Source of the DNA: Owenia fusiformis
Taxonomy: Eukaryota > Annelida > Polychaeta > Sabellida > Oweniidae
NCBI GenBank assembly: GCA_903813345.2
Contig: CAIIXF020000009.1
Span: 11,588,030 to 11,652,029 of the forward strand
Direction of reading: 5' to 3'
Length of the DNA stretch: 64,000 nt
Part shown: positions 23,039 to 61,300 of the stretch, in pieces
Layout of the letters: each line of letters starts with the position of its first letter
Position numbering within the stretch: position 1 is the stretch's first letter
Notes under the pieces: model-generated
What the model saw: the letters and a program-made list of their open reading frames with translations, nothing else
Database searches by the model: none
What the model was told of the DNA's origin: nothing
Program-made: the position numbers and the translations under genes

Positions 23039-26000
23039 ATGGAAAAAGCGTCCACGTGGATTTCCTTACTGACATTTTGGGCGACGTATTTCCCGAATGC
23101 TTCAACATATATTTCTACGGGACAAGGTAAATCCATTTTTGTATATAGTTATTATCAAATCTGGAAATTGATAACATCACGATTTTTTGAACTGATTTTA
23201 ATTCTACGTACTTTTATTAATAAAACAATGTTTTGCAACAACTCTGAATCATTTGAACATATTGACCGTTGTTTTTTATTCAATTGTACTAAATTATTTT
23301 TGCGTGTTTTATTTCCCGAGAATCCTTTAATTAACTTGCTGTTTACCTTTTTCGTGCAGACTGTTGCGACTAGAACGCTATATCTTTCTTTTTAATTTAT
23401 GCATGACATCAAACGATTCAGATTAAAAAGATTAAATTCAGATTTAAAAAAGAACACACATTTAGATATAAAGGAGTATTTGAAGATCCTAGTCACAATA
23501 CTATTTGACATCATAATGGTTCCTGAATTGTGGAAGAAGGGGTATTATAGACTTTGCTTCTTTTAGTCTGATATCATAGTTCAAGATCGAGAGGGCTTGT
23601 TTCCCTTTTACTTTGACTGTACAGTATATCAGTTATCCAACTCTGTTATCCAAATGGATAACTAAAGCTTAAGTTACATTTGCTCTACGGCTTATTCCTA
23701 TATTTCAAGATGCATATAAGGGAAGCTACGGCCGCCTTATGGTTGCCGATCAAATGTGACTGAGGCATTCAGGGCCGTAGTCAGGGGGGGGGTCAGGGGG
23801 TTCGAGCGACCCCCATTGGCAAAAAATGATTTTAAAATCATGCAGATTTTCACTGTTCTGAGTATATTCCAAGCGATATTGGCCATCTATGGGCCAAAAT
23901 TGTTAAAATTGAACCCCACTGGAATCTTTAAAAATGAACCCCCTTGGAAAATCCTGGTTAGGGCCTTGCATTAGACGTCAAAACTTGTGATGTATTATTT
24001 CAGAATCCAAGTTCTTTATCGGTGAAGGTATTGACAAGTGTGTTGGCGATACTCGGGTCGCTACTGGTACTATTCACATGTCAGCGCGTGGAGAATGCAA
24101 TGGTAAATCATTTAGGATAACTATGAGATAACGATTTGGTGGAAAACAAATAAATGACAAATGTAGAAAAAGTCGACTTGGATACAATTTAGCAAGTTTG
24201 TCTGTAAGGCGTCGGAAGAAAAACAACGTACAAAAACTACTTTTACTAATACATACTAGGGACTATACAACTTAGTCACTGCAAAATAATGATATTCAAC
24301 ATATTTATTTTAGATATTGGTGGGCATTGGGTTGGCTCTGGGGATGTCTGGAGAGACTGCCGTTTTGACTTGTGCAAAATTGAAGAATGGGGTATGAGAC
24401 ATGGTATTGTACCCTCTAAGGTCAGTTATGGTTAAGAAGTCACCAAACCATTTTATTGCTTTGGTGCCATATTCCATTTCCTTGCAATGATGATTTTATA
24501 TAATATAGATAAATGTAAAGGTCGACAGTAAGTTTATCATTACTATAAAATTATTTGGGTTGGTTTAGATAGTACCTAAAAAGGCTTAAATGAACACTCG
24601 AAAAGGTTTTATTATAGGTAGGTTCAATTGAATTTTAAACACGAGTTTAGTAAGATTTCCATTTTTTGTATTTAGTCATTTCAACATAAACTTCCAGCCT
24701 GGTTCCTGCCCGATTGGTTCTAAAAGGGCGTATGGTATAATAGATATGCTCTACATAAAGTGCAAGAATCTTGAAGGAGCTTACAATGATTACACATACG
24801 ACACCTTTGAAATTATGCAATGTCATCTAGACTGGTGCTACACCAATATATCGAATGGGTATCAGTTCGTACCTGCTTCAATCGGTGAGTGTTTTAAAGG
24901 TCCCAAGTGAGAAAATTTTGTAGCAATACATTAATCAATCAATAATTCATTAAAAATTAATCCTCGCTTAATATGACATTAGTTCAAACGTTTACACTGT
25001 GAATGAAATAGAAACAATACAATTAACAGTATTAAAATAATAATTTGAAATGACTATATCCTACCAAATCACGTTGTTGTTTCATAGGGAATTATCCCAG
25101 TTCACTGGTAAATGTTGAAATAAATGTAAACCAATAGCACAGATTAGAGAAAAGATTGTGCTTAATTTTGCCTCACAAACACTATGAAATAGTGTGTACA
25201 AAAGAAATAGTACATTGTACATAGTATAGCTTTCTAGACGTTTCACCCCCTGGACGTTTCACCCCTAGACTGTTCACCCCTTAGACGTTTCACCCCCTGG
25301 ACATTTCACCCCTTAGACATTTCACCCCCTGGACATTTCTCCCCCTGGACGTTTCACCCCTAGACATTTCATCCCTTAGACATTTCACCCCCTGGACACT
25401 TCACCCCCTAGACGTTTCACCCCTAGACGTTTCACCCCTTAGACATTTTACCCCCTAGACATTTCATCCCTTAGACGTTTCACCCCCTAGACATTTTAGT
25501 CTTAATTTTTTACTCCTACATATTTCATTCAAGTATTTCTCTTTGTTAGAACTGAATACCCTTAGTGTAAATGGCATATATTATAGAACATATTTCCTAT
25601 TGACACATTTTGATCAGTAACTTTTAGTGAATTTAAGATGATTTTATGTAATAGGGTTTAGCGTGGGTTTGATTAATTAAAATCACAATTTAATTACCAA
25701 GTGTTCCAAATAGCATAATCAAATAACAAGTGCTGTAAGTCACTAGAATTAACGCAGAGGTGAGTAGGTAGTTACAAGTTTCAACACCAGGTGGCTCGTT
25801 CGGGCCAGATAACATGGCAGGTATACTAGAAAGTTCCCTTTAATTTAAATCTTATACAATTCTAATTAATTTCACATCTAATTAATGCCATGTCTAATTG
25901 TTTACCATAAAACTAATGCTTTTATATCATTATAAATAACATGTTACCTCATGTACCTACAAGAAGAAAAAACAATTGGATTAATTTTCTAAATCTAAAT

Positions 26001-29000
26001 AATAATAAATCGGTTTGTTGCTTTTTAATAATGCAATTGATAACAAGGGAAGGGATTATCTAGGCAATTAGAGACTAGCATCTTTAATTAGTGCAAAGAG
26101 CAAACTTATTTTAGAAATTATTTGTACCAATATTGTTGTGGTTTTATACACTAGGACCTTTTCCAGTCAATGTTACTTGGAAAAGAAATCAGTATATATG
26201 CACTCATATAAATTAAGTCAAAATTCACTTATAATCCAACCCATCACATTGTACAATACACAGACTGTATATTGGGGTGAAATGTCTAGGGGGTGAAATG
26301 TCTAGGGGGTGAAATGTCTAGGGGGTGAAATGTCTAAGGGGTGAAACGTCTAGGGGTGAAACGTCTAAGGGATGAAACGTCTAGGGGTGAAATGTCTTGG
26401 GGGTGAAACGTCCAGGGGGTGAAACGTCCAGGGGGTGAAACGTCTAGGGGGTGAAGTGTCTAGGGGGTGAAATGTCCAGGGGGTGAAATGTCTAAGGGGT
26501 GAACAGTCTAGGGGTGAAACGTCCAGGGGGTGAAACGTCTTGATACCCATAGTATACATAGTATACAGAAAAGAAAATATAATCGAAGCACTTTAATAGC
26601 TGCATTAGTGTTTCCTTGGTGATGTTTTGTTTTCCAATGCTGCAACGTTAACAACAATTGAATTACAATTATCATTGTACTAAGTAATTAGTACACGTTC
26701 GGGATAATAATTTATCTATCAAATGTAACGATCAAATCAATGAAGAAATAAGTTTGAAAGGCAATGATTAGGCTGCTATTCGGGTTAATCATCAACCAAT
26801 CAAATCAATTTAAAAATCTTAAAATTTGCAGGAGATATCTGTTAAAAACAGAAATTGAATAAGATAAGTCTCGGCTTCAATATGTTCATATATTCAATAC
26901 ATTAAAACAGCGTTGACATATTGGCTTCTGTAATTAGTGACGTATATTGGGTCTGTAGCAGATTCTTACAACTTCAAATAATTTAACAAATACTGTATAG
27001 ACTGACTTCAATTGTTTCCAAAATCATCTACATGTTTTCAGAAGTTAAAATTTGACTTAATATTTAAGATTTGACCTTCAATGACCTTTTCAAGGTCAAA
27101 AAAGGTCATAAAAGTCTTTTTTCAACTTGCTTCAAATTTACCGTTTTTTTTCAAAATCATCTCAAGATCTCAAGATTACAAATCTGACTATAGACTTGAC
27201 ATTCAATGACATTCTCAAGGTCAAAATAGATTTGACCTTTAATGACCTCCTCAAGGTCAAAAAGGTCTTTTTTATCTTGCTTCAACTAGGTGGTGACATT
27301 TTGTCATGTTAATGCCTTCTTGTAAGTTTAGGCTCATGTCCTAACGATACACACAAAGTGCAAGGAAGGATTGAGATGCAGGGAAAGGAATGTCGTGATG
27401 TGGGAGGTAGTGCCAATGGAAATGCTGCCGATGACGAATGGACGCAGTGTAACCTGGATTGGTGTAACTTGCCTGGTACGTATACATAATGTTACGCGGT
27501 ATCATTCATCTTCTATTTTTCATATCTTCAAAAGTTATTCTAAAGATTTTTTGATAAAAACATTTTAAAGAAAAGTTGCCATCTTTTCATTTCTCAAACA
27601 TTCAAATTTCCCGCCATTTTTCAAATAATTGTTAAAGGATTTAAGCCCAAGCCTCAATGCATCATTTGCCAAATCATATCATGAAGGTGTTGTTTCCAAA
27701 CCTTTGCATGACCGCGCAGAGAGAATGCAAACTTGAGAACAACGCCTGGGTGGAATGAAGCAGCTACAATGCATTGAGTCTTGGACTTCAATTCCTTTCA
27801 CACATTACAAATATTTTTCTATAAAATCATCCAAAAGGAACGGAATCACCAAAAGAACACATTTTTTGTTTTGCAAGGGTCAAGTTGGCAAATCCAATGT
27901 GAAAAATCCATTCATTATCCATGACAACTGTTTAACTAGTGACCTTGTATGTGTTATTGATATTTCACACACAGTTATGTGAATACTCTGTTCGGATTTG
28001 CTGGAATCGGACACACCTTGCCTAGCTATGTGTAAATGACATTTCTAATCATCAAATATTCCATTATACAGTGCAAAACACATTATTTTAACGCCATTGT
28101 AAAGATTGAACAATCACACAAAGATAAAATGTCATATCTAATGTGCCATAGATGATATAGTATACAAATTGCAAACTAAGTGACATCATCATGATATAGC
28201 CCAGGTTGCATTCTTTAATTCAGATTTTTCTATGTCAATCTTTTCTCGATATGCTAAACTCTCAATGATTATGTTTTAAATATCACTGCACCATTGGCCC
28301 ATATTAGAACTAAAATTTTAAAACACATTTTCATCTGAACCATTTTCATGCATGGATAAGTTGATTTCTCGCTTTATTAATCAACTAATAGTCTTATCAC
28401 TCGACAAAAGACTCATAGGGATGAGTGCTATCCATTGTTGTGAATTGTGAATTATCAAAAGATATTTGTAACCTCTTGTATTTAGTTTTATTTTTCGAAC
28501 AAAAAGTCCTTCAAAAACCACTTCGCATACCATATTTTGGTAGCATTGCGGGTAAGACTATATTTTAAACCAAAGTGGCTTAAACTTTATATCGGGCCTT
28601 TAAGTTTCTTGGCAGACATGGGTCATGGAAAGGTATATTATAACATGATACATCCCGTTACAATTTAGGTCACTGTAAACATTTAGAACGATTGATATCC
28701 GGAGATGTTTACCATGTTGACGACGCAAACATCGCTGCATCCGGGACTTTTGATCCTTCTATGGGTACAAACAGATCTAGACTAGACACACCACAAACGT
28801 ATGTTGACGTTGAAATGGCTTTCATATCAACATTGCAGTTAACGTTACTATTGGAAAAACCGAAAAATGACATTTCGAATTCACTCTGCTAAAAATATGT
28901 TATTCCATGGGTATTATTATTTTAATCATAATATGGGTCAAATCCCCTCATGGGTATTATTATTTTAATCATAATATGGGTCAAATCCCCTCATGGGTAT

Positions 29001-32000: not shown

Positions 32001-35000
32001 AAGCATGAAATCTTCTATTGCTTAAGTTTTGCCTCATATATTTAAATTTGCCTCATATATCTAAATTTGCCTCACCTTCTTTTTAATCATGACTACACCC
32101 TTGAAGAACTTATTATGGTTTTGTGGAATATTATTACAGAGGTTCATTGTCAGAAGTTAACAGATCCATCCACTGGCCATTCGATGATATCTCATCAGGA
32201 CGGACGGAATGTTGGCGCAATAGTCGAGTACAAATGCTTGCCCGGGTACAGTTATTATTCCGGGGAATTCACAAAAGAATGCGAGATAAATAAGTTAGGG
32301 TATGGTGAATGGGCTGGTGATGACTTGAAATGTGCAGGTATGGACATCTCTAGGGTGTTTCTATTGTAAAAATCTCAAATGTCACTAACGAAACGTTAAT
32401 AGTCCATTTTTTCAAATGTATATGCATACCAAATAATAAAGCAGACATGGTCCGCGTAGCAAACAAAATCTCATCATGAAAGAGAGTCCAAATCTACCAT
32501 TGAAAAATCTATAGGAAGGTGATGGAGAAGTAATTTGAGTTGTTGTGACTATCATCTGAATTCTTCCTTGGAGGCATTTACATATAAAAATGAGTAGCCA
32601 GAAAGACTAGACTCAAAAATCAGAAATTAAAGTAAAACAGAAACTGAGCAGAACAGAACAGAGACGTAGTTCTGATTAGCACATCCCTCTGAATCTGAAT
32701 CTGATTATCATCATATGCTTATTATTGGAATTGAATCACAATGGCTTATACCATTGCTTATTATATTTTGCAGACAGTTTATTTTAGTATAAGAATACTT
32801 CCTTACAGAAAACTCTTCAATGGCGCTTTAGGCATTAAAGAGGAGCTCGTACATATAAGATAATATCAAACGTGCACTAGGTGCTGGTCAGTTATACTTA
32901 TTTTTAAAGCTACAAAACCTAATTGTTTCAATTATGACAAGGCTCCATTGATAGATCTGCTATTTATCCACGAGTGAATATCAATATACGACTGAACAAA
33001 TGCCATATAGTCATACCTTTTATCCTTAGGCTGTTGTGATTTCGAGAAGACACCAACAACGATCATTGTTTACAATTTCAATACACTCTCACTTGAACCT
33101 GTTGGAATTCCCCAAGGTAAAAACATTATTACTTACATTTATTTTTCGGGGCATGTTTTTTTTACTAAAAATCATCATTGTGTATCAATAGAATTTTAAT
33201 GTTTTCTTTCACTATTTCCGTGTATAGCATCGTATCATACTGCCAAATATTATTAGATAGTAGTCGTGTTGGTTAATTTACTTAATATCACATTGGCTGA
33301 TAAAGGAAATGTTTATTGCCTGTCTACTGTATAATCATCAACGTAATGTACTAGTTTTTTGTATAATACAATGTACTTTATTCTGCTGTTTAAATTCAAA
33401 CTTCTCATTTGCTTATTTCACAATTGCTTTGTGTGTTCTTCTACGATAGGGAATAGTGTGGATGAAAAGGGGGGCTATGTAGGGCTGAATACGATGCCAA
33501 GTGGTGTTATAACAATAAATGATAGCGTACCCTCGAGTAAACTCAACAACACGTTCTGTTTAGAAGCGTGGATAGATATCACTAGGTTAGAACAACATAA
33601 TGCAACTGTTTTTATTAAGGTGTCTGACACCTTTGGAATGATATTCAGTAATTCCATTGACAACATTGAGCTTCTTACCTATCTCACTTCAAATGATGCA
33701 AGAAAGGTTCACACGGTAAAACTAAATATGGAAATCGTGAAACATTCAAATATACTTCAAATAACTATGACAAGAGATGAGGAAATGATCGGATACTTTC
33801 TAAATGGAGTCCAAATCTTCACCAGTGTAACAGCAGAACAAGATACCCCATTGAATGAAACCACAAAGGATTTTCTTGTGTTTGCAAGTGGTAACGTCAC
33901 TATCTATTCAGTACATCTGCAAAACACAAGCTGTTTCGAGACGGAGACATATAAAAATGGTAATGATGAACTTTAGAATATGTTTATATATGTTTAATTT
34001 TTAATGTACACCAGGGTGGGTGTAAGAGTAATTATATATATCATGAATATCAGTTTTGTGGATTCCTTATTTAAGTACATGACAGGAAATTAAATGTTGA
34101 CCAGTCACCTCTTTCAGCCCAAACACTGAAGAAAACTGGCTGCGAGACATCAGATAAAAGTACTAGACTATCATGTCAGGGGGACGATGTTCTAGTTATT
34201 GATACTGTCGAAGTGGGACAAAGCAACAACAGCAATGGAATCAACTATTTGTGTGGGTTTGAGTACAACTCCTCGTGCAATATCCAGCCAGTTGGGAACA
34301 TCAATGAGATCAAGGACAAGTGTGATAAGCAAAATGAGTGCATAGTAAACTATGATGATTATTCCAATCTCAGACCTAATGATTGTGATGAAAGCCACAA
34401 CGTAACAGCAGTTATCAAATACCACTGCATAAGTAAGTTATAAATATATTGTCTAATACATAACATAAACGAAATGATAAATACATGTATGGAAATTGGT
34501 GATATTGCAAATGATATGATTTTTTCAATAATGTTGACGAACGTTTCTTATTTGAAATTCAACACAATGCTTAATTTACAGATATATCATGAACGGTAAA
34601 TGATCTAGTTAATTGATGAATAGTAAATCAGATGAGAAAACAAATGGTTTCAGTCCTTTTCAAATATATATTTGAACAAACAATGGTTGCAATCCTTTTC
34701 AAATATACATTTGAGAAAACAATGGTTGCAGTCCTTTTCAAATATATATTTGAACAAACAATGGTTGCAATCCTTTTCAAATATACATTTGAGAAAACAA
34801 TGGTTGTAGTCCTTTTCAAATATATATTTGAACAAACAATGGTTGCAGTCCTTTTCAAATATACATTTGAACAAACAATGGATGCAGTCCTTTAAAAAAC
34901 AACGGTTGCAGTCCTTTTCAAATATATATTTGAGAAAACAATGGTTGCAGTCCTTTTCAAATGTATATTCGAACAAAAAATGATGATGGATCATGATATC

Positions 35001-38000
35001 ATCGTAAAGCAACTGTTCTGTTCAAACATTTCTTCATGTAAACAGTTTTTACTTTATATGGTTAGGCATACTGGTATTTTTAAAAGACAAATCAAAGAAA
35101 GAAAGCATGACCACAATAACAGAATGATGTGTTATCTTACAATACTATGTTTTGACTTCGTAAAATATGTTCTTTATGTTGGAAAATTATTGAACAGGAA
35201 GTATTGTTACTGTTTCTCTCTCTCAACAAATATAAAATAGGAAAACAACATATAAGACCCCATCATATTATGCTATTAATGCAATATGGATATACCATTA
35301 GATGTGTTTTCAGGAAAACAAAATATATATCCTCAGAATATAACAACATCACAATCGGTTTCATCGGCTGTAAATGACCTGTCTCCATACGATACCTGTG
35401 CTGTTGTACCCTCTGGTACAAGGGAGATAGCATTTAATTTGGGAGGCTGTTTTCAAATCAATGAACTGATAATTAACTTTAGTAAGTATAACTTGTCCCA
35501 ATACAATACTTGTGCTGTTCCATCTGGTACAAGGGAGATAGCATTTGATTTGGGAGGCTGTTTTCAAATCAATGAACTGATAATTAACTTTAGTAAGTAT
35601 GACTTGTCTCAATACGATACTTGTGCTGTTCCATCTGGTACAAGGGAGATAGCATTTAATTTGGGAGGGTGTTTTCAAATCAATGAACTGATAATTAACT
35701 TTAGTAAGTATAACTTGTCTCCATACGATACTTGTGCTGTTCCATCTGGTACAAGGGAGATAGCATTTAATTTGGGAGGGTGTTTTCAAATCAATGAACT
35801 GATAATTAACTTTAGTAAGTATAACTTGTCTCAATACGATACTTGTGCTGTTCCATCTGGTACAAGGGAGATAGCATTTAATTTGGGAGGCTGTTTTCAA
35901 ATCAATGAACTGATAATTAACTTTAGTAAGTATGACTTGTCTCAATACGATACTTGTGCTGTTCCCCCTGGTACAAGGGAGATAGCATTTGATTTGGAAG
36001 GCTGTTTTCAAATCAATGAACTGATATTTAACTTTAGTAAGTATAACTTGTCCCAATACGATACTTGTGCTGTTCCATCTGGTACAAGGGAGATGGCATT
36101 TAATTTGGGAGGCTGTTTTCAAATCAATGAACTGATAATTAACTTTAGTAAGTATATGACTTGTCTCAATACGATACTTGTGCTGTTCCATCTGGTACAA
36201 GGGAGATAGCATTTAATTTGGGAGGCTGTTTTCAAATCAATGAACTGATAATTAACTTTAGTAAGTATGACTTGTCTCCAAACGATACTTGTGCTGTTGT
36301 ACCCTCTGGTACAAGGGAGATAGCATATAATTTGGGAGGCTGTTTTCAAATCAATGAACTGAAAATTAACTTTAGTAAGTATGACTTGTCTCCATACGAT
36401 ACGTGTGCTGTTCCATCTGGTACAAGGGAGATAGCATTTGATTTGGGATGCTGTTTTCAAATCAATGAACTGATAATTAACTTTAGTAAGTATGACTTGT
36501 CTCAATACGATACTTGTGCTGTTCCATCTGGTACAAGGGAGATAGCATTTGATTTGGGAGGCTGTTTTCAAATCAATGAACTGATAATTAACTTTAGTAA
36601 GTATGACTTGTCTCAATACGATACTTGTGCTGTTCCCCCTGGTACAAGGGAGATAGCATTTGATTTGGAAGGCTGTTTTCAAATCAATGAACTGATAATT
36701 AACTTTAGTAAGTATATGACTTGTCTCAATACGATACTTGTGCTGTTCCATCTGGTAAAAGGGAGATAGCATTTAATTCGGGAGGCTGTTTTCAAATCAA
36801 TGAACTGATAATTAACTTTAGTAAGTATAACTTGTCCCAATACGATACTTGTGCTGTTCCATCTGGTACAAGGGAGATAGCATTTAATTTGGGAGGCTGT
36901 TTTCAAATCAATGAACTGATAATTAACTTTAGTAAGTATAACTAGTCCCAATACGATACTTGTGCTGTTCCATCTGGTACAAGGGAGATAGCATTTAATT
37001 TGGGAGGCTGTTTTCAAATCAATGAACTGATAATTAACTTTAGTAAGTATAACTTGTCCCAATACGATACTTGTGCTGTTCCATCTGGTACAAGGGAGAT
37101 AGCATTTAATTTGGGATGCTGTTTTCAAATCAATGAACTGATAATTAACTTTAGTAAGTATGACTTGTCTCAATACGATACTTGTGCTGTTGTACCCTCT
37201 GGTACAAGGGAGATAGCATATAATTTGGGAGGCTGTTTTCAAATCAATGAACTGATAATTAACTTTAGTAAGTATGACTTGTCTCCAAACGATACTTGTG
37301 CTGTTGTACCCTCTGGTACAAGGGAGATAGCATATAATTTGGGAGGCTGTTTTCAAATCAATGAACTGAAAATTAACTTTAGTAAGTATGACTTGTCTCC
37401 ATACGATACTTGTGCTATTGTACCCTCTGGTACAAGGGAGATAGCATTTAATTTGGGAGGCTGTTTTCAAATCAATGAACTGATAATTAACTTTAGTAAG
37501 TATGACTTGTACCCATGTTCCCTCTGGTTAAAAGGAGACAGCATTTAATTTGGGAGGCTGTTTTCAAATCAATGAACTGAAAATTAACTTTAGTAAGTAT
37601 GACTTGTCTCCATACGATACGTGTGCTGTTCCATCTGGTACAAGGGAGATAGCATTTGATTTGGGATGCTGTTTTCAAATCAATGAACTGATAATTAACT
37701 TTAGCAAGTATAACTTGTCCCAATACGATACTTGTGCTGTTCCATCTGGTACAAGGGAGATAGCATTTAATTTGGGAGGCTGTTTTCAAATCAATGAACT
37801 AATAATTAACTTTAGTAAGTATGACCTGTCTCCATACGATACTTGTGCTATTGTACCCTCTGGTACAAGGGAGATAGCATTTAATTTGGGAGGCTGTTTT
37901 CAAATCAATGAACTGATAATTAACTTTAGTAAGTATGACCTGTCTCCATACGATACTTGTGCTATTGTACCCTCTGGTACAAGGGAGATAGCATTTAATT

Positions 38001-41000
38001 TGGGACGCTGTTTTCAAATCAATGAACTGATAATTAACTTTAGTAAGTATGACCTGTCTCCATACGATACTTGTGCTGCTGTACCCTCTGGTACAAGGGA
38101 GATAGCATTTAATTTGGGAAGCTGTTTTCAAATCAATGAACTAATGATTAACTGTAGTAAGTATGACTTTGTCTCCATACGATACTTGTGCTGCTGTACC
38201 CTCTGGTACAAGGGAGACAACATTTAATTTGGGAAGCTGTTTTCAAATCAATGAACTGATAATTAACTTTAGTAAGTATGACCTGTCTCCATGCGATACT
38301 TGTGCTGCTGTACCCTCTGGTACAAGGGAGATAACATTTAATTTGGGAAGCTGTTTTCAAATCAATGAACTGATAATTAACTTTAGTAAGTATGACTTGT
38401 CTCCATACGATACTTGTGCTGCTGTAACCTCCGGTACAAGGGAGATAGCATTTGATTTGGGAGGCTGTTTTCAAATCAATGAACTGATAATTAACTTTAG
38501 TAAGTAGGCTATGACTTGAAAAAGATATCTGATACTAGTATATAGAACACAGTTCAAATTTTGAAAATTTGAGGCCCATTTTCTTCAAAATTTGGCCTCA
38601 AATTAAAAAATAAGGCCTTAGAAGGCCTAGTATTGACCAAAAAGGCCCACCTTTTGGAGCCTTAAGGCCTTTTTTGGCCCAAAGTTTTGGGCCCAATTTA
38701 GGGGGGGGGGGGGGGCAGGCCCCCATGCCCCCCCCCCGGATCCGCCACTGGAACATTAAGAAAAAACTTTCTTTTGGTGAGGCTTCGAACTGACTGATTT
38801 GGGTTTTAGACATAGTTAAATGGATTGCCATGCTTTGTATTTTTGTATTTCCAAAATTGAACCTCCTTTTTTCAGATATTTCCTCATTATTGGACACAAT
38901 TCAGATGTTTGATATCAAGGTGCATACTGACGGGGATGAAACTGGAATTGATTATTGCATCAAAGGGGCAGATGCTCAACATTCAATTCCTGTTCTGTAT
39001 GAGTGTGGAGATTCTATGTTTGGGGATCGTGTGGCTATTGTATTAGACAGCAATCAAAACCCAGATTGGATGATTTGTAATGTTGAGATTTACGCTACAC
39101 AAGGTAATGGTGATGTATAAGGTGTAATAATCAATAATTAATACATGGCGTAATAAAAAAATAATACAGAACATCATTATGCCCTGAGCATAATGCAGGT
39201 CCGTAGCCAGGGGGGGGGGGGGGCTCCAGATATCTCCTTAAAAAATGTGGACCTACCTTTTTTTGCTTTCTTGAAGAATTTCCTTGCATTTCGAGGTAGA
39301 AGGTAACATTTGGTGACATATGTACGGTGTATTTTGCTGTGATTGCCAATTTCATTTTATAAAATTCTAAATTGACTGGAATAGCGAGGCAACTAAATGA
39401 TTCGTTTTTTGTATTTAATTGGAAAATTAATTTTTATGGATGGTGCGTGTTTAAAGTGCAAAATCTTACACCGTCTCACTGACGGACGTGAGAGGACCCC
39501 CCCCCCCCCCTAAGTTGTGCTCCATAAATTGGGGCCTACAAACAAAGGTCAAACTTCAAATTGGCGTAGCTAAATATACGCAAAATATGCAATCGCGTTC
39601 TATTAAGAGTCGAGACCAAAAATGTAAATTGAAATTAATCATATATTTTGATCTTTTAATCGCTCAGAACGCGCCAAATAAGCCTAAAATTCACTTTTTT
39701 AAAGAGATCATATATTTTGATCCTAGAGTCGCCCAGAACGTACCAAATAAGTCTAAAAATTCAATTTTTTAAAATACTTAAATCATATATTTTGATCTTC
39801 GAATCGCTCAGACCGCACTAAATCAGCCCAAAAATCTTAAATTTTTCAGTGGAGCATGTGATTTTGATCCTAGAATCACTCAGAACGACGTGTCAAATAA
39901 GCCTAAAAATTCGATTTTTTAAAATCCATAAATTATATATTTTGATCCCTAGAACGATCAGAATGCACCAAAAAAGGCTAAAATTTTGAAATACGTAATT
40001 CATATATTTTAATCTTAGAATTGCTCAGAACGCACAAAATCAGCCCAAAACTCCCAAATGTTCCGGGGAGCATGCCCTCTGGTTACGTTCTCACAAGCTA
40101 TTCTTTTACAGGGCATGATAATTTGGCTCGAATTTTGAGGGCATGTAATGTTTTGTTTCTTTCTCTCCTAATAATTTAAAGTTGTTGTTTGTATAAGTAG
40201 ATAAACGCAACAAAAGAGATGGAGATACTAAGTTCGAAATGAATTAGAAAACATAAATTCATTCTTACTTGCAGTATCCTATGGTCCAACGACGTGTAAA
40301 AATAGACACAATAATCAACCAACAACTGATGACATTGTCACAACAAATACTGGATTCATCACAACTGATGACATTGTCACAACAAATACTGGTGTCATGA
40401 CAACTGATGACATTGTCACAACTGATTACATCGTCACAACGAATACAGGAGTTATCACAACTGATGACATCGTCACAACGAATACTCCAACGATCACAAC
40501 TGGAGTCATCACAACTGGTGACATTGTCACGACTAATACTGGACCCATCACATCTGATGCCAAAGTCACGACAAATACTGGCACCACCAAAACTGATGAG
40601 ATTGCCACAACAAAAACAGGAACCATCACAACGGATGAAATCGTCACAAGGGAGACAGAAACCATCACAACTGAAGTCGTTTTAACCACGAATACTGGAA
40701 CCATCACAACTGATGACATTGTCGCACAAAGAAATCGTGATATCTCAACAACAACTAGAACCACCAAACAAACTGTCATCTCTACTTCATATCCAAACCA
40801 AACAATTCCAACTGGATTTAAAGCATCGCCAGAAACTGCTATGACCAAAACTTCACCTTTGATGATTGTATTTAAAGACATAGCAGAGGAAGCTGAAAAG
40901 GCTGATGAATATGTGTATATTAAAAGAATCGAGTATGAGCCACGTGAAGCGAAATATGCAGCTGCTATAGCAATCCCAGTATGTGTCCCACCTATTATCT

Positions 41001-41167
41001 TTATCTCGGTGGTCGTTATTTTAGACCTCCCAAAGCTTATAATGGATATCACACAAGCTTATAATTTAATTGTATATGGAACAAAAAAGAAACCAAAGAT
41101 TGGGCCGAAAGCGCCCATATTGAAGGCGAATGAACCTAAAATTGAAAATGACAATATCAAAACATAA
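23039..41167 (+). CDS. Multidomain lectin-like type I membrane protein, 15 exons, 1163 aa
   Basis: Exons: 23039-23126, 24004-24102, 24314-24420, 24698-24884, 27332-27475, 28669-28798, 29515-29704, 31418-31565, 32140-32337, 33030-33116, 33450-33959, 34118-34432, 35314-35481, 38876-39103, 40275-41167. All have GT/AG ends, phases match, and the sum is 3492 bp, divisible by 3. Domains by residue: signal peptide 1-24; three four-Cys modules 30-208; F5/8C (discoidin) 209-363, with GGWAAEYGDDVNQWIQVDLG and ARFVRINPQTWN; sushi 365-430; ConA/LamG-like 431-629; SUEL-type lectin 630-734, ending TAVIKYHC; fucolectin-like domain about 737-866, ending CNVEIYAT; Thr-rich TTNTGxITTDDIV stalk about 880-1030; TM 1094-1118; basic tail. 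It probably binds glycans at the cell surface, as a recognition or adhesion receptor; this is inferred from domains. No family with this exact order is known to me. Exon 3's donor (gtcagt) and exon 4's acceptor are the weakest calls, chosen because they alone keep the frame. Confidence 0.85.
23756..23974. repeat. Dispersed G/C-tract repeat in intron 1
   Basis: It begins gggccgtagtcagggg and contains gaaccccactggaatc. It is related to 6140-6340. Confidence 0.55.
25200..26575. mobile_element. Foldback element with minisatellite arms in intron 4
   Basis: The left arm (25233-25500) is about 17 units of gacgtttcacccccta-like sequence. The right arm (26275-26545) is the reverse complement, ggggtgaaatgtctag-like. 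The order of unit variants is mirrored at the outer ends, including the rare ctagactgttcacccc, so the arms come from an inverted duplication. Flanks catagtata and gtatactatg also pair. The 770-bp centre has no gene. Confidence 0.7.
27027..27290. repeat. Diverged duplicated segment rich in AAGGTCA/TGACCTT
   Basis: Two to three related blocks read aatgaccttttcaaggtcaa and aatgacctcctcaaggtcaa. It lies just upstream of exon 5. The half-site resemblance to nuclear-receptor sites is probably incidental to the repeat. Confidence 0.45.
28906..29465. repeat. 43-bp tandem repeat, about 13 copies, intron 6
   Basis: The unit includes tcatgggtattattatttta and gtcataatatgggtcaaat. Copies differ by a few bases, notably ccctc versus ttccctc and gggta versus gatag. 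The array fills most of the intron between exons 6 and 7. Confidence 0.9.
29918..30145. mobile_element. MITE with GTATTATTACCACC ends, copy 1
   Basis: The left end gtattattaccacc and right end ggtggtaataatac are exact inverted repeats. The 228-bp body contains caataatgcaattaatga and attttccccgggaaatta. A second copy is at 54062-54236. Confidence 0.8.
30402..30569. mobile_element. Short TIR element in intron 7
   Basis: Left end ttaaggtgatgatggaacga and right end reversed ttaaggtacatgtagaacga, followed by aaacgtttt/aaacatttt. It is MITE-like and about 168 bp. Confidence 0.55.
31800..31960. repeat. Dispersed repeat shared with 9980-10140
   Basis: It contains gacacttgtgcttagatatt and ttacgttagatcatg. 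It lies in intron 8. Confidence 0.55.
34640..34980. repeat. 39-bp tandem repeat, about 9 copies, intron 12
   Basis: The unit holds caatggttgcagtccttttc and a palindromic tcaaatatatatttga. A period of 13 codons leaves both strands open, so the long frames here are artefacts of the repeat. Confidence 0.85.
35371..38506 (+). repeat. 28-copy tandem array of an exon 3' end plus its splice donor
   Basis: The unit is 111 or 114 bp and contains the last part of exon 13 (reading YDTCAVPSGTREIAFN, then LGGCFQINELIINF) followed by GTAAGTAT. Donors lie at 35482, 35593, 35704, 35815, 35926, 36037, 36148, then 36261 and on to 38500; 27 are GTAAG and one (37704) is GCAAG. The first seven are in one open frame. 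The frame breaks after 36148 because of a 2-bp insertion. Only one acceptor (35313) precedes the array. A block of about 560 bp (five units) is duplicated within it. Confidence 0.9.
38507..38760. repeat. GGCCT-rich segment and poly-G/poly-C tract
   Basis: Repeated aaggcct and ggcctt words are followed by a long G tract (38701-38715) and a C tract. The end (cggatccgccactgg) is typical of a dispersed repeat boundary. Confidence 0.45.
39500..40075. repeat. Diverged tandem repeat, 66-78-bp units, intron 14
   Basis: Six units carry catatattttgatcctagaa, then tcgctcagaacgcac and aaataagcctaaaaattc-like text, near 39642, 39708, 39784, 39856, 39934 and 39999. A C tract precedes them near 39497. Confidence 0.7.
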
Positions 41168-52394: not shown

Positions 52395-55300
52395 ATGTCT
52401 GATTATACAGAAGTAGATCGTGACATTAAAGATGCACTTGATAGGAAAGATGAAGATCAGCTGAAGTTGATCCTCCAGAATACAACCAAGTGCAATAGAG
52501 AGACAATTGTTTGGGCATTGGAGAAAAAGGTGAAACCTAGTACAGAAACCTTGGACTTATTGCAAGAAAAGGGTGCAGATGTAAACAATGCTAGTGGCAA
52601 GTATAAAATGACTGCATTGATGTTGGCTTGTGAGTTTGGCTCTCTGGAATGTACACAGTGGTTAACAGAGCATGGTGCAGATGTCAATGCTAGGGACAAT
52701 ACTGGTTGGACTGCATTGATGTGGGCTTGTAGGTCTGGCTCTCTGGAATGTACACAGTGGTTAACAGAGCACGGTGCTGATGTCAATGCTAGGGACAATG
52801 ATGATTGGACTGCATTGATGTTGGCTTGTGAGTCTGGCTCTCTGGAATGTACACAGTGGTTAACAGAGCATGGTGCAAATGTCAATGCTATGAACAATGC
52901 TGGTATGACTGCATTGATGTTGGCTTGTAGATCTGGCTCTCTGGAATGTACACAGTGGTTAACAGAGCATGGTGCAGATGTCAATGCTATGAACAATGCT
53001 GGTATGACTGCATTGATGTGGGCTTGTGTCTCTGGCTCTCTGGAATGTACACAGTGGTTAACAGAGCATGGTGCAGATGTCAATGCTACTTCTAGAGAAG
53101 GAGCTCCAGTACTGACATTCATAGAAAAGTTCACTCCTAAATACAGACACATATACAGCTTCCTCGTCAAACTAGGTGCTAAGGATGTTGATTACAAACA
53201 CCTCATGTCACTAAACAGCAATGCAAGTGATGATCAGCACCACACAGCTAAAACAAAACTAGATGTAATGAAAGATAAATGGAAGCTGAGTTTAAAGTGT
53301 CAGGTGAGGTGGTCTCTGTATCAAACCAGTTTGACAAATGGAGTGTCATACAGAAACAGCATCAACAGTTTGATTCATGATGGACATCTACCCCCCAATC
53401 CTGAATTGACAACATTCTTGTTGTTTGCTGACTCAGATGACATATGTGAGATAGAGACAATCCTACAAGAACTATATGCTAGTCATGAGGTCCAGAGAGA
53501 ATTAATCAAATACAGAACAGAAAGAACCAGCCAAGAAAAACAAGCAGTGAAGGAACCATTTGTGCGATTGGAATCACATCACAGAAAACTACTGAAATGG
53601 TAAATGTTCAATTTTATCCCCCATAGATAATATTGCTCATTAATATAAGGATAAACCATTGGCAATTTATCTCAAAATTTGCCATTAAATAGTAAACTGT
53701 ATTGTCATATTTAGAAAATCTTTGTAGCACTGGGGATACTGAATGGTCAACATTTTGGACAATTCAATTAAACTATGATAACAGGTTCATTGATAGAGCT
53801 ATCAATGCATATTAGCTTTTACCGGTATATTTAAACTTTCCTACCATTTAAACAACAAATATTCCACAATCCAGTATACGAAACAGCTTCCATTTCATTC
53901 TATATGCTTTCCTCTAATTTTATTGCATTTTTACAGTTTTGAGAGATTACTGTATAATGCTGTGATCTCATTAAAGGAAAAAGCTTTCAATATTATATAA
54001 GTGCAATAATTAATTTTGCTCAACTTTTAATCTTTTCAACTAATTTTGATATTACTGATCAATTACTAACACCTTGCCGGGCCAGTTCTAGGGGTTTCAT
54101 AGTCATAGTGGCAGTCCATAATGGCGGTCAATAATGCAATTAATGACTGGCAATTTTCCCCGGGAAATTAGGTATTGTTCAGTGCGTAAGACTTTCTTGC
54201 TATTTCAGCCCTGGTCATAAACGGTGGTAATAATACTAATGCGGGCCTTGAACATGTTTCTTTTCTCTTGATACATTATTTTAGATCAACATGTTTGATC
54301 TTAATGTCAACATTTCAGTAGAATCGTTTAAAGATGACATCTGGTGCAATCTGACTTGTCTTCGTCAATTCAGGAAAATATCAAGTAAAGATTTCAGTAA
54401 AAGTGTTCCACATGGTTTAAAGTGGTAATAAGTATGTTGAGACAATTCTTTAAAAGGCCTCATTCTCTTGATATATGAAAACAGATGAATTCAAATGCAA
54501 TAGACTAGATACCAATATTAACTAGACAACAGCAACGCCAAAGCATAGGAAATCCCATCGAACAGCCATGGCTGGCATTTTTACAAACAAAGTATATAGC
54601 AAAAATCGTAAAATAGCATATAATAAATGGCCACCATTTTCAAAATGGTTGCTCACTGGCCAAATTGTCAAAGGTGTACTATGCTTCTAAGTAGGCACAT
54701 AAAAAATTTCAACAAAATCGCACACATGTTCATGTAAATGGTGGCCATTTTAAAAAATTCTTGCCAAAACTTGCATAACTTGTTTGTCTATTAACATATA
54801 GACTTGTCCTTTGGCACATTTAAACCAGAACAACGGCAACGCCAACGCGTAGCGAATCCCACTGAACAGAAATGGCTGGCATTTTTACATACGAAATATA
54901 GCAAATATCATAAAATAACACACAAAAGAAAGGCCACCATTTTCAAAATGGTTGATCACTAGCCAAATTGTCATCAGAAGAAGTAATATGCTTTTAAGTA
55001 GCCACATATAAAATTCTTAAAAAATCGCCAATGCTGGCTATTTTTTAAAATGGCTGCTTACTACCCAAAATGTCATAAGACAGTATGCAATCCTTACTAG
55101 ATATAGTATTCACATATCAAATATGAACAAAATCGCTCAAATACTTTTTGAGTTATAATAAAAAATGTAAAATAACACACATAAAAATGGTGGCCATTTT
55201 TCAAAATGGCCGACTACTCCCCAAAGTTTTATTAGACAATGTGCCATGCGTAAAGTATTCACATATCAAATATGAACAAAATCGCTCCAATACTTTTCGA

Positions 55301-58300: not shown

Positions 58301-61300
58301 AACAGTTTTACATATTGCACCTAAATTACTGTAAAATCGGCACTAAAATGGCCGCCATTTTGAAATGAGCGGCCATTTTGAAAATCGGCTTTCGAGCAGA
58401 ACTTCTACTCCCATAAGGTATATGTGTACAAAATATGAACAAAATCGGGCCAACGGTATTTGAGTTATTGCACGGACGGACGGACGGACGGACGGACGGA
58501 CGGACGGACGTACGTACGGACGGAGGCGTTCCCTATATCCCTCCGAACTTCGTTCGATGGGATAATAAGACTGCATGTCTTATTCAGTGCCATACATGAC
58601 TTCCGGGTGACCTAGAAATGGCGATGTTTCAAAGAAAAATTGTCAATTTAACAATTTAAATGGTATTTTAGCTGAAAAATGTGGAGGAATCAAACAAAAT
58701 GGTGGCTAAATATGATCATAATGAAATTGTGGAGGATATGGACTGCGATTTTAAGCTCTTTAGGCTTTTGGAAGCCGATAATGGACATCGAAAATAGAAA
58801 CTAGAATATTTTCTGAACTGAAAAGTTGAAGATTAGATCGCTGCAAATCCAGATTTGGATTCTGACCCGACATTGAGTCTTCCAAGGGGTGAAGTGGTGG
58901 TTTCCGGAGGAGTATTCATAGTTTAGTATGCACAGTTGTGTTAATTTATTAAAAAAATAAATAAGAAATATATGATCGTGGTAACAGACAATGTATCTTA
59001 CTTCTGTGAAAATTTTATCCAGATTCATTCAGTAGTAATCGAGATATTTATCATAAGTCCAGAATATACCATTTTCTTGCAAAATGAGTCAGTCACATGC
59101 CAAATTAAGTCAGCATGCTAAAGGTTAAGGGGGTTTAATTTCTTGTCAATTTTAGAAATAATCTTGATTTTCATAATCAATTATTCAAAATGAAATTAAA
59201 GCGGTATCATATTAAAATATCAATAAAATTAAATCTAAAAGTGAAATCTTTATTTTGAAATGTGATCAAGTGGATTCCCATAAAGTCTATTTTAGCAAAA
59301 TCAGTAAAATTTCCAACAGGTCACAAACTTATGAAATCTCTTAACTGATCACAATTTGTATGATTATTTACTCAAAATCTATCATGTAAATTGATTCAAT
59401 GAAATATTCAAATTGTTTTGTACAGGTCAGATATACCCATATTTATCTCGTATCGGATCCAGTATTAGATCCCGTATCAGTCAAAAAGCAGTATCAAAAC
59501 TACCGGAAAATTTTATGAGACTTAATATTGTGTTCTGGCATGTAATGATCCATCTCAATATTATAAATTATTTCTTTTTCAAAACTTGTTAATAAAAGTT
59601 GAAAATGTCATTCAATGAATTAAATTGTATCATTTTATGTCAATATAATTTGGTGATGACATACAAAACAAGTTTCAGAAAAATATTGAGGAATAAATAG
59701 GTTATTGATGGTCGTAATCTAATATGAATTTTTCCTTGACAAAATATGATATTGGCCTTGGAAAATATCATATTGACACTTGGGCTGTCGCCACCAGTCA
59801 ACATGATATTATCCTTGGTCAATATTATATTTTTCCCCAAAATAAAATTCTCAATCCATCCCTCCCATTTGATAACCTTTAACAATGATGCATAACACTT
59901 GCATAACAATTCTGTATTTCTGTATATGGGAATTTAGCCTTAAAGGCCCAGAGATTTGGACCCGGGTGAAGCTATTAATCAAGCTGTCACAGCTCAGCCA
60001 ATCAGTGCTAATGTGGTCAGTTTAAATGTCCAGCATAAACAGAAACACATGGTCTGCTACAAGTGAGATACAGCCTTATGCTATGTTTGTTTACTTCTAG
60101 ATGGATAAGAGATGCCCATTGGCTGAAATTTAAACTGTCAGTTATGCTAATGAGCATATTTACAAAAAGAAATTGTCTTATTTCACAAAAACTAAACAAC
60201 ATTTTCAGAATTTGATTTGAAATTTATAGTCATTTTAGATTCATGAACCACTGTAACAAAAAAGAGCTTGTAACTCATCATAACAATCTTGTTATAGCAG
60301 AAAGTTTGAAAATTTTCTCATTTTGTTTGAACTGGACCTTTAAACTGCCATATTTGGCTTTTGTGGGCTGTTCCATCTGCCTTTTATACCCGCTCTCAGT
60401 CTTTAAGTCCCCCTCCCCATTCAAAAAGATTTGCAAAAGTATAATTTCTTATTAAAATTCCTAACATCATCATTATACTTTCACTTTAGACACCTGGGCT
60501 AGATATATCTAGATGTGGTTCAAATGAAAGCTGATATGTTTTTTATTGATGTGTCTAATGTTTCTCATGTACATTTTCTACATGCATGTTGGGTTGGAAT
60601 AGGTAGTAGGGTGTCAGCCACTTGACATCCTGTTTCTTGCTCCTGTTTTAGGGGAATATAAATTTAGTCATACTTTCAGGATTCCTGTTGTGAAGTTCTA
60701 TGGAATGGGAGAAGATGGTCTTTACTCCATACATACTCCATACTATTTTACTTTCAGGATTCCTGTTGTGAAGTTCTATGGAATGGGAGAAGATGGTCTT
60801 TACTCCATACATACTCCATACTATTTTACTTTCAGGATTCCTGTTGTGAAGTTCTATGGTATGGGATAAGATGGTCTTAACTCCATACATAATCCATACT
60901 ATTTTACTTTCAGGATTCCTGTGGTGAAGTTCTATGGAATGGGAGAAGATGGTCTTTACTCCATACATACTTCATACTATTTTACTTTCAGGATTCCTGT
61001 GGTGAAGTTCTATGGAATGGGAGAAGATGGTCTTTACTCCATACATACTTCATACTATTTTACTTTCAGGATTCCTGTGGTGAAGTTCTATGGTATGGGA
61101 GAAGATGGTATTTACTCCATACATATATTTGATGGATGTGTCAACAAGACATCTGACTTTCTAGAAAGAGTGATGCCTGAGTACCAATTCCACTCTGTTA
61201 CCTGGATGAAGGATGAATCTATCCAGTTGCTCGGCTGTGCAGGAAAACCTTTACACAGCAGGAATAGGGATACTGCTGATGAAGGTATGCTTGAAAATTT

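Follow-up and report, generated by a model that had tools for sequence, protein, structure and literature searches.

A 28-copy tandem array, probably a minisatellite, spanning an exon-intron junction in a predicted gene of the annelid Owenia fusiformis

In a predicted gene of Owenia fusiformis, the end of an exon and the splice donor that follows it recur 28 times in tandem. Such an arrangement raises the question of whether donor choice and copy number diversify the encoded protein, as the original prediction proposed in one of its two readings, or whether the array is a neutral satellite in which essentially one donor is used. We analyzed the locus within a 64,000-nucleotide stretch of contig CAIIXF020000009.1 (the window). 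The number of the affected exon (exon 13) is that of the original prediction, and reading frames were checked from exon 12 to the last exon only. Our preferred reading, to which we assign a probability of roughly three in four, is that the array is a neutral minisatellite over the junction of exon 13 and intron 13, with donor 1 dominant among the products that include exon 13 and the later donors leaking little.

Array and host gene

The array occupies positions 35370 to 38499 of the plus strand and consists of 28 units, each made up of the last ~110 nt of exon 13 and then its donor; unit 1 is exon 13's own end (Table 1). The predicted copy number was borne out in two ways, as TRF returned a 111-bp repeat of 28.0 copies with 93% matches (35374 to 38506), and the anchor TTTTCAAATCAATGAACT, by which we delimited the units, was found 28 times out of 28. 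Unit lengths range from 97 to 115 bp, with 14 units of 111 bp and 9 of 114 bp (together 23/28). The predicted spacing of 111 to 114 bp holds for 25 of 27 anchor-to-anchor intervals, the exceptions being one of 97 bp and one of 115 bp. Similarly, GTAAGT had been expected in every copy and is exact in 27 of the 28, the donor of unit 21 being GCAAGT. In its exonic context the donor reads TTA/GTAAGT in 26/28 units, GTA/GTAAGT in 1/28, and TTA/GCAAGT in 1/28. The first eight intron bases are GTAAGTAT at 26/28 donors, a sequence that we take to be fully complementary to U1, with TTA rather than CAG on the exon side. Outside the array, GTAAGT occurs 20 times on the plus strand of the window, and the sequences of three sample units, sought elsewhere in the window, gave matches of 12 to 19 bases only.

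Table 1. Features of the exon 13 array and the neighboring exons (positions within the window)
Feature	Positions	Strand	Description
Exon 12	34118-34432	+	Weak SUEL-lectin-like stretch; donor GTAAGT at 34433
Exon 13 ending at donor 1	35314-35481	+	168 nt, phase 1 at both ends
Units 2 to 7	35482-36147	+	Addable in frame to exon 13 via donors 2 to 7, as 37-residue blocks
Unit 8	36148-36260	+	2-bp longer start (GTAAGTATATGAC) shifts the frame; open frame stops at 36209
Unit 20	37496-37592	+	Degenerate, 97 bp
Donor 21	37704-37709	+	GCAAGT, the sole non-GTAAGT donor among 28
Donor 28	38500-38505	+	Followed by unique intron sequence
Exon 14	38876-39103	+	228 nt, phase 1 at both ends; in-frame junction with donors 1 to 7
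Last exon	40275-41167	+	Stalk of Thr-rich repeats, then a hydrophobic segment (by eye, probably a transmembrane span), a tail, and the stop

The frame stays open to the last codon of exon 12, and the last base of this exon, exon 13 ending at donor 1, exon 14, and the last exon (exon 15 in the frame checks) form a single frame to the natural stop. Among Pfam families, the open frames upstream match F5/8 type C (2e-13, above the cut-off, and 3.3e-6, just below it), sushi (1.9e-6, above the cut-off), and Laminin_G_3 (5.6e-5, below the cut-off), and exon 12 matches SUEL_Lectin at an E value of 0.02 (15.7 bits, under the cut-off of 31.4). The host of the array looks like a gene for a many-domain membrane protein, and this mix of domains is in keeping with an animal. 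The domain that the array would extend had been described as fucolectin-like. Exons 13 and 14, taken with one, two, or three blocks, matched neither F5_F8_type_C nor any related Pfam family at E values up to 10, although HMMER filters discard most matches above about 0.1 and a distant relation is thus left possible. Against PDB sequences, the best match of exons 13 and 14 was a dehydrogenase (E value of 1), with no credible solved structure, and that of exon 12 was snRNP E (0.49). The fucolectin-like label therefore reflects a resemblance seen by eye, which neither Pfam nor the structure search supported. A Pfam search with the array's 309-aa open frame gave seven unrelated families (the best being DUF2689, 2e-6), with no single stretch passing, and we took these matches as repeat noise. 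Relatives sought in prokaryote genome contigs gave 16 pattern matches, 0 of which were confirmed.

Two other repeats lie in or beside these exons. A 39/78-bp satellite is located within the intron immediately upstream of exon 13 (34633 to 34982), and a degenerate 39-bp array (40322 to 40730; 68% matches) in the last exon encodes a Thr-rich stretch, representing an older repeat in the translated part of the gene.

Reading frame, constraint, and turnover of the units

Donors 1 to 7 (7/28) are productive, as from each of them the frame runs on through exons 14 and 15 and ends at the natural stop. Every step from one of these donors to the next adds 37 residues, and the products thus carry 0 to 6 extra blocks. 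Full-length products thus confirm what had been predicted for the first seven donors, and the predicted Cys pair is also present, with two Cys residues in each of translated units 1 to 7. Each of donors 8 to 28 (21/21) meets a stop after the 2-bp longer start of unit 8. Since only donors 1 to 7 keep the frame, a working gene would need the early donors. The minus-strand frames of the array are also long (open for 283, 217, and 282 aa), and the open frames are therefore weak evidence for coding use.

To assess constraint, we aligned 27 of the 28 units (leaving out unit 20), dropped the alignment columns created by the 2-bp and 1-bp insertions, and classed alleles relative to the consensus. The 34 variant alleles comprise 24 nonsynonymous, 9 synonymous, and 1 stop, and a null derived from the observed mutation spectrum predicts 8.6 synonymous and 1.0 stop alleles of 34. 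Synonymous bias between units, the test named with the original prediction, is thus absent (9/34 versus 8.6 expected). Third codon positions were not enriched for variants (10 versus 11.5 expected), and the donor hexamer was no better preserved than the rest of the unit (1 variant allele versus 1.8 expected, P value = 0.46). The copies drift like neutral repeat DNA, without codon-level constraint, and as protein the units look neither conserved nor diversifying.

The early units deserve separate mention. Units 1 to 7 hold 8 nonsynonymous and 5 synonymous alleles, and units 2 to 7 hold 8 and 3. Unit 1, which would be translated in any product with exon 13, has one private substitution, a synonymous one, plus a 2-base difference at its start; this agrees with the preferred reading without proving it. 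Indels fall into one class of 3 bp and three frame-shifting classes (+2 in units 8 and 13, +1 in unit 26, and a net loss in unit 20). A stop or frameshift is found in 0/6 of units 2 to 7 versus 5/21 of the later units (8, 13, 15, 20, and 26), a contrast whose direction favors coding use and whose probability by chance is about 0.25 by hand calculation, the units being too few to be decisive. A 20-column invariant stretch in the units exceeds the length expected by chance (P value = 0.03, chosen post hoc).

Adjacent units are closer to each other than random pairs are (5.9 versus 8.0 differences; permutation P value of the best lag = 0.06). Units 9 and 18 are identical, as are units 10 and 21, and exact copies inside the array reach up to 189 bp, with the 189-bp copies lying 1007 bp apart; these identities are signs of recent exchange. 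Three extra bases mark the longer unit type in unit 1 and units 23 to 28, and the 111-bp type occupies units 2 to 7 and most of units 10 to 16, a distribution as expected from the internal spread of a variant. The internal 560-bp higher-order duplication that had been claimed proved inseparable from ordinary unit similarity. The best identity of 560-bp windows was 95.2% at lag 560, whereas lags of 111 and 661 gave 96.4% and 95.7%, and the order of blocks of 2, 3, 4, and 5 units was no better than that of shuffled units (P values = 0.62, 0.49, 0.75, and 0.23). The two units with the 2-bp insertion (8 and 13) begin 560 bp apart, and this offset may be where the claim came from.

Donor choice and alternative explanations

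We propose that a tandem duplication took in the end of exon 13 along with the start of its intron, and that slippage or unequal exchange then enlarged the array and partly homogenized it. As every unit carries a donor, the one clear acceptor upstream faces 28 possible donors. The copies after unit 1 are intronic and drift free of codon constraint. The single upstream acceptor of the original prediction stands as the one clear acceptor, at 35314, and some in-unit AGs score comparably by hand-set weights. Exon 13 is most likely recognized by exon definition, from this acceptor to the nearest donor at 35482, as a 168-nt exon, and donor 1 would therefore dominate among products that contain exon 13. 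Later donors probably leak at a low level, with donor 2 giving a protein longer by 37 aa and donors 8 onward giving a premature stop, presumably followed by mRNA decay.

Several observations bear on this proposal. The intron upstream of exon 13 is 881 nt long and the one downstream measures from 3394 nt (donor 1) to 376 nt (donor 28), such that whichever donor is taken, the introns on both sides exceed 250 nt, the intron length used as the border of exon definition in the available text of PMC9225289. As described there, human minigenes with two identical CAG/guaagu donors and long flanking introns used the upstream donor exclusively, and native donor pairs of equal strength between long introns favor the upstream donor. 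Across all native human events, about 60% favored the downstream donor, and the upstream preference appeared only after the equal-strength filter. The donors of those minigenes were CAG flanked, 52 nt apart, and assayed in transfected cells, whereas the Owenia donors have TTA on the exon side and a spacing of about 111 nt. In the same study, weakened donors caused exon skipping in larger minigene exons. By weights that we set by hand, the array donors score 0.1 each (4/28 scored) versus 2.1 for the donor of exon 12. The lengths of exon 13 (to donor 1) and exon 14 are each divisible by three, and both exons have phase 1 at either end; skipping either would therefore preserve the frame. Because of the patterns in PMC9225289 and ABCA7 (see below) and these exon lengths, we would expect donor 1 in most transcripts, a minor or trace form with 37 additional residues, and perhaps exon skipping.

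The main functional alternative is length diversification, in which donors 1 to 7 would all be used at useful levels, so that an extracellular domain would come in versions of 1 to 7 blocks, each of 37 residues. The seven productive donors, the common unit lengths that are multiples of three, the lesion-free units 2 to 7, and the multidomain gene with its F5/8C and sushi matches agree with it, but the neutral ratio of nonsynonymous to synonymous changes among units and the open minus-strand frames do not, and we consider it unlikely. Structure prediction does not help its case: an AlphaFold model of 277 residues (units 1 to 7 and the start of exon 13) shows stacked beta hairpins (pLDDT = 67.4, pTM = 0.73), and a minus-strand frame of the array, modeled as a control, scores higher (pLDDT = 84.8, pTM = 0.83), so the model says nothing on function. 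Equally unlikely, in our view, is a seven-donor ladder in which noisy or regulated splicing and changes in copy number would jointly yield graded proteins of 1 to 7 blocks, the other 21 donors being an unproductive sink. Therefore, of the two readings first offered, the anatomy for donor choice exists (7/28 productive), but diversification by splicing, lacking synonymous bias, is possible but unsupported, and the other reading, a neutral satellite in which practically a single donor is used, is the better fit. Donor choice might instead follow proximity across the intron, as in the intron-centric rule described in PMC9225289, such that the last donors pair with exon 14 to form long stop-bearing exons and the array lowers gene output or the gene is dying. 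That 21/28 donors are unproductive is in keeping with this, but both flanking introns exceed 250 nt with any donor, and exons 12 to 15 are open to the natural stop with donors 1 to 7, which argues against a dead gene; we regard this outcome as quite unlikely.

It is also conceivable, albeit very unlikely, that the array chiefly drives skipping of a neighboring exon, as the ABCA7 VNTR does for the exon downstream of it. In the available text of PMC5954066, skipping of ABCA7 exon 19 ranges from 12 to 45% by tissue and rises with VNTR length, but the ABCA7 unit differs in sequence from ours, and the effect is discussed there via splicing-factor motifs. For this gene, either exon 14 (228 nt) or exon 13 (168 nt) could be removed in frame. 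That copy number or order is partly an artefact of assembly seems highly improbable: near-identical units are hard to assemble, and two pairs are indeed identical, but most other pairs differ (by a mean of about 8 alignment columns) and many units carry private variants. In Dscam-type arrays of mutually exclusive or cassette exons, every unit has both an acceptor and a donor. Like them, the Owenia array sits in a receptor-like gene and provides a coding segment in many versions, but each of its units has a donor and, at best, a weak AG that is out of frame. Among the best 12 of 160 AGs and those of unit 3, ACAAG/GG scores 2.73 in units 6 and 12 and 0.27 in unit 3 by hand weights, compared with 1.35, 3.80, and 0.09 for the acceptors of exons 13, 14, and 15; the best thus surpass the acceptor of exon 13. 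Splicing of units as small cassette exons from such sites would nevertheless require introns of about 52 nt, and joining the preceding donor to ACAAG/GG reads AGG AGA TAG, a stop met at once. We therefore rejected an array of cassette or mutually exclusive exons, which needs an in-frame acceptor and a donor per unit, and find even occasional use of this kind scarcely credible.

Two further ideas were set aside. A recursive (ratchet) splice site has AG immediately before GT (AG/GTAAGT), and the array has TTA or GTA before the donor in 28/28 units. RNA accessibility was highest for donor 1 among the 28, but some sums were negative, and we disregarded the result.

Known boundary arrays and other repeats in the window

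A VNTR in intron 18 of human ABCA7 starts with the exon 18 donor and repeats it (PMC5954066). In the available text of that study, ABCA7 transcripts retaining exactly one VNTR unit amount to 2 ± 1%, measured after decay; cycloheximide raised the stop-bearing forms, and the alternative forms together outweigh canonical splicing in 90% of BA10 brain samples. The likeness to our array lies in a position directly at the 3' end of an exon, including the native donor, and in a donor in each unit (the ABCA7 unit begins with a donor GT), and both features were found here (the array adjoins exon 13 with its native donor, and 28/28 units carry a donor). In contrast, the ABCA7 unit is 25 bp long, intronic, and present in about 12 to 427 copies, its retention shifts the frame, and VNTR length chiefly affects how often the next exon is skipped, whereas the 111- to 114-bp Owenia unit carries a coding exon end, and its first seven copies stay in frame. 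In human segmental duplications, too, minisatellites have been described that expanded where exon and intron meet, altering splicing and amino acid repeats, with 27 intron modifications (PMC2812944, available text). The internal tandem repeats in that work average 30 bp × 4, compared with 28 copies of about 111 bp in Owenia. The MIR137 VNTR was rejected as a precedent, as its alternative donors lie in the pre-miRNA and not in the VNTR, according to the available text of PMC6692358. Overall, the array is best read as a neutral minisatellite that spans a splice boundary; its kind is known, but its in-frame unit is unusually long.

With 28 near-identical donors behind one acceptor, the array is a natural competing-donor experiment in which donor choice over distance would be measurable within one gene. 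It also shows a minisatellite able to lengthen an exon in frame without breaking the gene.

The window holds 63 TRF rows, many of them overlapping. One array on the plus strand (60671 to 61125; 78-bp unit, 5.8 copies) contains six copies of an acceptor-like site together with a possible exon start (ACTTTCAG/GATTCC). Places 4 to 6 open into frames of 446, 420, and 394 aa, and places 1 to 3 reach a stop after 62, 36, and 10 aa; a weak match to Nal1_C (E value of 0.002, below the cut-off) falls in the long frame. This second array repeats an acceptor-like site, and the process that builds boundary arrays is therefore not special to the host gene of the first. Together with the many other arrays, it points to a minisatellite-rich genome whose arrays now and then take in a splice boundary. 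Two arrays of 16-bp units (25234 to 25496 and 26274 to 26540), about 780 bp apart, have consensus sequences that are near reverse complements (CTAGACATTTCACCCC and GGGGTGAAACGTCTAG) and are possibly the ends of a mobile element. Finally, a 99-bp array (52610 to 53088; 92% matches) lies within a 405-aa open frame whose sequence resembles, by eye, young ankyrin repeats.
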